21,068 nt of DNA. Origin: Chloroflexota bacterium (lineage in GTDB: Bacteria > Chloroflexota > Anaerolineae > Anaerolineales > Villigracilaceae). Shown here piece by piece: positions 3,998 through 5,490 of this stretch; position 1 is the first letter of the stretch; each line of letters begins with the position of its first letter. The position numbers and the translations under genes were made by a program. Below the pieces are notes generated by a model that saw only the letters and a program-made list of their open reading frames with translations, did not search any database and was not told the origin of the DNA. The stretch covers positions 1 to 21,068 of the forward strand of contig JAJYOH010000034.1 of NCBI GenBank assembly GCA_021796315.1. Reading direction: 5' to 3'.

Positions 3998-4026
3998 TTG
4001 ACAAGGCTTAACCCAGCCGTTATAAT
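3998..4026 (+). promoter_or_regulatory. Consensus promoter of the rplU-rpmA-rpmE operon
   Basis: A perfect sigma-70-type promoter: TTGACA (3998-4003), 17-base spacer, TATAAT (4021-4026). Perfect hexamers with ideal spacing fit strong expression of ribosomal protein genes. It is divergent from the sppA promoter, with about 84 bases between the two -35 boxes. Confidence 0.88.
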
Positions 4027-4158: not shown

Positions 4159-4740
4159 ATGAGATACGCAATTGTTGAAAGCGGCGGCAAGCAATACCGC
4201 GCCGTCGAAGGCGGCAAGATCGAAGTGGACCGCCTGTCTGCTCAAAAGGGCGACAAGATCAATATTGATCGAGTGCTGTTGATGGCAGATGGTGACGAAT
4301 ATTTGGTGGGCGCTCCGACTTTGAGCGAAATTTTGGTCAAGGCCACGGTCGTTGATCATTTTCGCGGCGAGAAAGCCTTCCGATTTAAATACAGCCCCAA
4401 GAAACGCATTCGCGTGCGCGGTGGACATCGTCAGCAGTATACACGGCTGATGGTGGACTTTATCGGGCGCGCAGGTGAGGAACGCAAGGTCGAAGTAGCC
4501 GAGCCAAAACCTGTGGTTGAGAAGAAGACCGAAGTCAAGGTTGAAAAGGCCAAGGCTGAACCCAAGGCAAAAGCTGAGAAGCCCGCCGCAAAGTCCGCGA
4601 AGGAAGCGGTAAAGAAAACTGAAAAGGCTCCGGCGAAAAAGTCCGAAAAAGCGCCTGCCAAAAAGTCAACTTCGACCGGCAAGCCCGCCGCGAAATCAAC
4701 AGATAAAAAATCGTCGACTGCTAAGAAGTCGAGCAAGTAA
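4159..4740 (+). CDS. rplU: 50S ribosomal protein L21 with long basic C-terminal tail
   Basis: A 193-residue protein. Residues 1 to about 105 are the L21 core: it begins [19 protein letters not shown] and contains [22 protein letters not shown] and the basic GGHRQQYTR segment that contacts 23S rRNA. Typical L21 stops near residue 105. Here about 85 more residues follow, almost entirely Lys, Ala, Pro, Glu and Ser with AKK/PAKK motifs, resembling histone-H1-like tails. The ATG at 4159 is chosen over an in-frame ATG at 4135 because the conserved L21 N-terminus begins there and GGAGAG precedes it. It is first in the operon with rpmA 14 bases downstream. The tail probably is disordered and binds RNA (inference). 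Confidence 0.96.
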
Positions 4741-4754
4741 TTAGAGAGGTAGAA

Positions 4755-5012
4755 ATGGCTCATAAAAAAGGCGGCAGTTCAAGCCGCAACGGTCGTGACT
4801 CAAATGCCCAGCGCCTGGGCGTCAAGCGCTACGCGGGCCAGTTTGTGTTGTCCGGTAACATCCTGATCCGCCAGCGCGGCACGAAGATCAAGCCCGGCCT
4901 AAATGTGGATGCTGGTAAAGATGATACGTTGTTCGCCACGGCGGATGGCGTTGTGATGTTCGATCTTGTGCGTGGTCGCAAGCGTGTGAACGTCATTCCA
5001 GCGGAGAAGTAG
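4755..5012 (+). CDS. rpmA: 50S ribosomal protein L27
   Basis: An 85-residue L27 of normal length. The N-terminus [20 protein letters not shown] is the conserved flexible arm that reaches toward the peptidyl transferase centre. It is followed by LGVKRYAGQ and a compact beta-barrel body. There is no N-terminal extension of the kind that needs Prp cleavage in Firmicutes. AGAGAGGT lies before the ATG. It follows rplU in the usual bacterial order and is followed with a one-base gap by rpmE. Confidence 0.97.
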
Positions 5013-5013
5013 A

Positions 5014-5490
5014 ATGAAAGCTGAAATTCACCCAACATATTATCCGGACGCCAAGGTAACTTGTGCTTCCTGCGGCAAGACTTGGACGACCGGCTCAACC
5101 AAGAAGGAGTTGCGCGTCGATATTTGTTCGAATTGCCATCCGTTCTTTAGCGGTGAGTCCCGCATCATTGACGTTGAGGGCCAGGTGGATCGCTTCTACA
5201 AGAAACTGTCTGCCCGCCAGACTTACGTTGAAAAGAAGAAAGCCAAGGAAGTTGCCGGCAGTTCACCGGAACGCGCCATCGCCGAGTTGGAAATGCCGGC
5301 CCGCGCGAATGAAGCGCTTTCCAAAGCTGGCATTACTGAAGTCGGTCAATTCCTTGCGAAGTTGGCTGAAGGCGATATGGCTGTTTTGGCGATTGAAGGC
5401 TTTGGCCAGAAGTCACTGGTGGATATCAAGAAGAAGCTGCGAGCAATGGGCTACAACCTTCCTGAAACCACCGCCGAAGCCGGTGCGTAA
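5014..5490 (+). CDS. rpmE: 50S ribosomal protein L31 fused to an RNA polymerase alpha-CTD-like domain
   Basis: A 158-residue protein. Residues 1 to about 75 are a zinc-type (C+) L31: [17 protein letters not shown], with paired cysteines at 17/20 and 38/41, and then HPFFSG and RFYKKL. Usual L31 is about 70 residues. After a short Lys/Glu linker, residues 90-150 align with the alpha C-terminal domain of RNA polymerase: [16 protein letters not shown] matches the LELxVRSxNCLKxAGI helix, and [15 protein letters not shown] matches NLGxKSLxEIKxKL. Arg97 falls at E. coli Arg265 and Lys133 at Lys298, both DNA contacts, but Asn268 is replaced by Glu100. GGAGAAG before the ATG overlaps the rpmA stop. 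The reading frame is continuous from L31 into the extra domain, so this is a true fusion in this sequence. Confidence 0.93.

Follow-up and report, generated by a model that had tools for sequence, protein, structure and literature searches.

The locus described here raises the question of why a ribosomal protein should end in a domain characteristic of RNA polymerase, and of what such a domain could do there. To our knowledge, RNA polymerase domains are not expected on ribosomal proteins. The window, by which we mean the whole 21,068-nt stretch of DNA that was analysed, encodes a protein that the initial annotation read as a zinc-type L31 over residues 1-75, followed by a homologue of the C-terminal domain of the RNA polymerase alpha subunit (alpha-CTD), and both parts of that reading were borne out. 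The Pfam family PF01197 matches the protein with 91.3 bits against a family cut-off of 27, and the four cysteines of its zinc motif (CASC...CSNC) are invariant in 40 aligned rows; the profile search that had been proposed for the tail returned PF03118 with 39.7 bits, above the curated cut-off of 23.8, and in a structure comparison the fold of the module matches alpha-CTDs. In this lineage bL31 bears an alpha-CTD homologue. No alpha-NTD is present and PF01197 alone precedes the module, so the protein is not itself an RNA polymerase alpha subunit. It is like other bL31 proteins (PF01197, rpmE) in its complete zinc-type domain and its place in an L21-L27-L31 cluster, and unlike the usual bL31 in being about twice as long and in bearing the C-terminal module. 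The features of the locus are listed in Table 1.

Table 1. Features of the bL31 fusion gene and its surroundings (positions in the window)
Feature	Positions	Strand	Basis
Putative sigma-70 consensus promoter, TTGACA - 17 nt - TATAAT, upstream of rplU	3998..4026	+	read by eye
rplU, bL21 with long Lys/Ala-rich tail	4159..4740	+	PF00829 only; without alpha-CTD module
rpmA, bL27, second gene of the L21-L27-L31 cluster	4755..5012	+	ORF; named from sequence
rpmE, bL31 with alpha-CTD-like module, 158 aa	5014..5490	+	ORF; PF01197 and PF03118
bL31 domain, residues 1-64, zinc type (Cys17, 20, 38, 41)	5014..5205	+	PF01197
Connecting helix, residues 54-83	5173..5262	+	predicted helix 54-82
alpha-CTD-like module, residues 84-150	5263..5463	+	PF03118; structural match to alpha-CTDs; conserved residues

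The bL21 of the window has a long C-terminal tail (4465-4740) that is rich in Lys, Ala and Ser, contains repeats such as one of 11 residues, and resembles a histone H1-type tail; in some relatives the same position holds an alpha-CTD module. Scanning the window for Rfam families and tRNAs yielded no matches.

The fusion is not peculiar to one assembly. The best 80 of 582 confirmed relatives were ranked by likeness to the query, which places fused loci first, and among these 80 the fusion is present in 37 and absent in 43 (the set includes two incomplete loci, L034 and L036). Of 298 genomes drawn evenly from the class of G002, Anaerolineae, at least 92 matched a profile of the fusion over at least 136 of its 160 positions, and three gave no match to it whatever. 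Seventeen of the weaker fusions among the 92 were read individually and all 17 contain the module, with scores of 34.6-77.7 bits against a profile of the L31 and S16 modules; both of the two that were run against Pfam passed the cut-offs for both domains, and in three genomes lying just under the line for the fusion profile the module was found on reading to be absent. A draw of 251 genomes from the phylum showed the fusion in 24 among the matches listed, of which 23 had also been part of the class draw and G532 was the one addition. The extension is thus conserved among relatives, recurring across many Anaerolineae, a group whose members are largely uncultured, and its recurrence among the best loci and in the class draw rules out a pseudogene or a misassembly. 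A chance match is ruled out by the fold, by the score of the profile search and by conservation across the family. The fused gene is the sole PF01197 match in all 33 fused genomes examined, so ribosomes that contain bL31 in these organisms would carry the module, and we infer that the fusion protein is incorporated into ribosomes. Selection on the tail was gauged from Nei-Gojobori dN/dS, for which 71 of 630 pairs had a usable dS; the tail has a median of 0.24 and the L31 core one of 0.11, single pairs reaching 0.84, and these values indicate that the module is under purifying selection. Eleven distant fused L31 proteins (L236-L242, L250, L251, L253 and L254) lack the zinc cysteines yet have the module.

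What the module might bind can be approached through the residues that serve this purpose in the parent domain. UP-element DNA is bound by the alpha-CTD through residues 265, 268, 294, 296, 298 and 299, among which Asn268 and Asn294 are DNA contacts of the E. coli domain. In the module of the window 265, 296, 298 and 299 are kept, 268 is Glu and 294 is Gly, so the set of UP-element residues is incomplete; the initial annotation had placed Arg97 at Arg265 and a GxKS motif with Lys133 at Lys298, and had noted the replacement of Asn268 by Glu, all of which agree with the residue comparison. Counting identical aligned rows once, and bearing in mind that close relatives of the window are over-represented among the 178 L31 rows, we find Arg265 kept nearly everywhere (RpoA 31/31, L31 177/178, S16 111/112, L21 44/44, NusA 18/20, beta' 7/7). 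Asn294 is kept in all 31 RpoA rows and is Gly in 176/178 L31, 103/112 S16, 44/44 L21 and 16/20 NusA rows. Asn268 is likewise kept in 31/31 RpoA rows and also in 68/112 S16, 14/20 NusA and 12/44 L21 rows, and Glu or Asp stands at this position in 157/178 L31 rows. Lys298 is kept in 156/178 L31 rows and 3/7 beta' rows, and Ser299 in 1/7 beta' rows. The last helix of the L31 module adds basic residues of its own, namely Lys139 (175/178), Lys140 (170/178) and Arg143 (175/178), which are conserved together with Arg97, Gly131, Lys133 and Ser134 among these mostly close L31 rows. Reading by eye of the 17 weaker L31 fusions showed the Arg to be missing in two and the basic helix in five, with one more cut by a contig end, so these features are not universal in L31. 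The window-type L31 module therefore retains part of the alpha-CTD binding face and bears a basic patch of its own. Because Asn268 and Asn294 are lost, the case for plain DNA binding is weakened, and ordinary binding of UP elements has probably been lost; an Arg265/Gly-x-Lys-Ser face that is kept, Asn contacts that are lost and a basic last helix together suggest a protein or RNA ligand and not plain UP-element DNA.

The same module occurs on several other proteins of transcription and translation. In one genome whose L31 is unfused it is carried by bS16, with support from Pfam, and a database search with that S16 fusion listed 120 matches, all annotated with PF00886 and PF03118. S16 fusions were seen in at least 11 of the 298 genomes of the class draw, nine as near full-length matches and two through reading of ORFs with long linkers, and in some of these fusions the linker that precedes the module is both long and variable. 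A model of the S16 fusion has a mean pLDDT of 86.9 and helices in the module region; VIA-align on this model returned only S16-type chains among the 50 listed, and the module was assigned instead from profile matches and Pfam. Four S16 proteins (L150, L156, L167 and L168) have long acidic tails rich in Glu and Ala and no module, which may be remnants or precursors of linkers. On bL21 the module is found in G094, within an L21-L27-L31 cluster resembling the one in the window and alongside an unfused L31, and PF00829 occurs together with PF03118 in 49 of the 120 database relatives listed by the L21 fusion search. No genome is shared between the 92 seen with a fused L31 and the 11 seen with a fused S16; we do not claim that the two exclude one another, since both counts are lower bounds uncorrected for kinship and G094 has the module on both S16 and L21.

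Two transcription proteins carry it as well. NusA carries the module in 22 genomes that were read (ORFs of 550-735 aa matched by the S16-module profile or PF03118), its identity being assigned mostly by motif; all five that were tested with Pfam showed NusA domains and PF03118, although L209 lies slightly under the PF03118 cut-off. One further 570-aa ORF of NusA size among the same matches (L256) could not be assigned by name. In ten genomes that were read (L216, L228-L231, L233, L234 and L260-L262) the module is inserted in RpoC, the beta' subunit. The insertion falls inside Rpb1 domain 3 in all four Pfam-tested cases, two of them above the PF03118 cut-off and two slightly below it, and in the seven cases with flanking sequence to hand it lies shortly before TTVGR or TTPGR; an alpha-CTD-like insertion in beta' is of interest by itself. 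Outside the 92 genomes, PF03118 matches in 130 genomes of the class draw include 27 frames of beta' size and, leaving L256 aside, 16 of NusA size, sorted by size and in a minority of cases read individually. These readings leave aside short frames in G144, G187, G091, G042, G539, G540, G544 and G556 and a 681-aa frame in G562. Many genomes of the class show the RpoA copy of the module alone.

This spread looks largely specific to the class, as judged, short of proof, from control sets that are small and were chosen via their L31. A PF03118 match was present in 20 of 23 genomes from other or unnamed phyla and was the single match in 18 of them; among 13 genomes of other Chloroflexota, four of them titled Dehalococcoidia or Dehalococcoidales, 12 had a single match, and the second match in G562 is a weak one in the NusA-sized frame just mentioned.

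As to where the module came from, the CTD of RpoA in this class has a loop that exceeds its B. subtilis counterpart by three residues, and a longer loop is common to most modules on L31, S16, L21, NusA and beta', which suggests that the alpha-CTD of the lineage itself was the source and leaves an origin from another phylum unsupported. The domain was not transferred away from RpoA: a separate RpoA with its CTD is kept in 17 of 20 genomes, including 13 of 16 with a fused L31, and a search for an RpoA CTD found none in G001, G003 and G016. A tree of 94 modules (65 columns), in which the long beta' branches are unreliable and from which the divergent weaker L31 modules were left out, has one clade of 17 L31 modules (support 100/99) and nests the L31 module of G107 within the NusA modules (100/98). 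These well-supported branches imply at least two origins of the module on L31, and a single origin for all ribosomal protein fusions is unsupported when bL31 by itself needs two; in an earlier tree of 45 L31 rows, without the L31 of G107, the support for the L31 group was just 93/35. G107's L31 module shares 51 of 62 residues with the second NusA module of that genome. The two modules are separated by about 2.4 kb and their reading frames, which run on opposite strands of one contig, by about 0.8 kb, so that the L31 module looks like a copy that passed from NusA to L31.

The individual domains concerned are all known; what is new is their combination and the repeated spread of one of them over transcription and translation proteins within one class. 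Full-text literature searches aimed at such fusions, with most subscription papers outside their reach, found no description of them, and the domain architectures are already present in a protein database as automatic annotation. With the RNA polymerase alpha-CTD (PF03118) the L31 module shares its fold, its sequence family and residues Arg265, Gly296, Lys298 and Ser299, and with the RpoA CTD of the class in particular the three-residue loop insertion; it is unlike the alpha-CTD in being attached to bL31 and not to an alpha-NTD, in the loss of both Asn contacts and in its basic last helix. A likeness may also be drawn to the small AR1 and AR2 domains at the C-terminus of E. coli NusA. PMC7171158 states that AR domains are restricted in their occurrence, and the NusA tails found here differ from them in scoring as PF03118 (L209, again, slightly under the cut-off); the S16-module profile (A2) matched 79 PDB sequences, and the 60 of these that were listed include no NusA-AR chain.

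The reading that we prefer, with a probability of roughly 0.4, is that the module is a tether, a mimic of the alpha-CTD anchored on the ribosome that would dock on a partner of alpha-CTD-type domains. Descent from the alpha-CTD, the sites on L31, S16 and L21, and the presence of the module on NusA and beta' would make a docking module the easiest reading of these sequences, and the module's occurrence on NusA, beta', bS16 and bL21 lends indirect support to the initial suggestion that L31 might link ribosomes with DNA, polymerase or transcription factors. On bL31 the module would be held at bridge B1b, close to the head of the 30S subunit, and on the other carriers it would be held by linkers; the docking partner could be NusA, RNA polymerase or an adaptor shared by them. 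With such a tether the local ribosome concentration around a transcribing polymerase would rise, the result being a physical form of transcription-translation coupling in which the window-type L31 copy would be a specialised version of the module. PMC9966373 describes bL31 as forming bridge B1b from the central protuberance to the 30S, PMC7171158 reports that E. coli NusA AR2 binds the alpha-CTD and may thereby release NusA autoinhibition, and PMC12297416 has NusA together with NusG able to bind both RNA polymerase and the ribosome. A tether would be like coupling mediated by NusG and NusA in having a domain that links polymerase and ribosome, and unlike it in having that domain built into ribosomal proteins.

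Several observations count against a tether. No one geometry of docking would serve all carriers, given how distant the sites of S16 and L21 on the ribosome are from that of L31. The module was found on NusA in only 4 of 16 genomes with a fused L31 (default threshold), and module-to-module pairing with NusA therefore cannot be the general answer. The genomes with the RpoA copy alone, the two DNA contacts lost on most L31 copies, the poor retention of Lys298 and Ser299 in beta' and the weaker L31 fusions without the Arg or the basic helix also tell against it. The strongest rival, because of that helix, is an RNA-binding structural role on L31, a possibility that the initial annotation had also raised, in which the helix-hairpin-helix would bind 16S, 23S or 5S rRNA or adjacent ribosomal proteins and so strengthen subunit joining or bridge B1b, independently of transcription. 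The G-x-G-x-K-S hairpin and the Arg are kept as this would lead one to expect, the connection to the L31 core is predicted to be helical, and C-terminal residues of E. coli bL31 help subunit association according to PMC9966373; we nevertheless consider it somewhat unlikely, since the module sits also on bS16 and bL21, far from bL31 (on S16 in some cases behind linkers that are long and vary), and on two non-ribosomal proteins, NusA and beta'.

Those last carriers would be accounted for if the modules recruited ribosomal proteins to polymerase on rRNA operons, much as in an antitermination complex, for co-transcriptional assembly of ribosomes. S16 and L21 bind early in assembly, which would fit such recruitment, but bL31 is a late and weakly bound protein and is nonetheless the commonest ribosomal protein carrier seen (at least 92 against at least 11 for S16 among the 298 genomes), and we regard this explanation as unlikely even though NusA is a member of the rRNA transcription complex (PMC6614801). 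Less probable still is a role away from the ribosome, in which free L31 with its module would bind DNA or polymerase and autoregulate its own operon or repress others; retention of Arg265 and, in most L31 rows, of Lys298 would fit, as would an HTH protein with the same module in one genome and a report, cited in PMC10931766, that E. coli L2 interacts with RNA polymerase alpha, and the replacement of Asn268 and Asn294 in most L31 rows argues against it. We are just as doubtful that the module is a neutral graft, a harmless appendage kept by chance. In most genomes of the class draw no module was seen on a ribosomal protein, the tail has roughly double the median dN/dS of the core and single pairs go much higher, and some distant L31 copies are without the Arg or the basic helix; set against these are the low median itself, the near invariance of the surface residues in 178 rows, the two or more independent gains on L31 and the retention of the module in the 11 loci whose L31 lacks zinc cysteines.

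Returning to the tether, one polymerase-type domain on ribosomal and transcription proteins alike hints at a physical link from transcription to translation. In a wider form, which we put forward tentatively and with slightly less assurance than the tether itself, Anaerolineae would have spread one docking module derived from the alpha-CTD over alpha, beta', NusA, bL31, bS16 and bL21, and matching modules would build transcription-translation coupling, or else co-transcriptional ribosome assembly, into the ribosome, beyond bridging by NusG and NusA alone. The lineage would then be a natural test of the usefulness of a ribosome-polymerase tether and of which partner it needs, with a value that comes from repeated gain on ribosomal proteins and two transcription proteins and from purifying selection on L31, where this was tested; it would also widen the known modes of coupling, which are now based mainly on a few model bacteria.

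Alpha-CTD-like modules were also noticed in proteins of other kinds. The HTH protein (PF01381) with a C-terminal module is encoded at L171:643-1137 in genome G024, and two ORFs of 818 aa (G001, L208) and 905 aa (G166) are unclassified. Three ORFs of 679-875 aa (L213, L214 and L215) contain, close to the N-terminus, at least two alpha-CTD-like repeats that lack the loop insertion, and in G139 (L223:3-2672) a family 2 glycosyltransferase frame is followed by three such modules in tandem, as either a fusion or an artefact.
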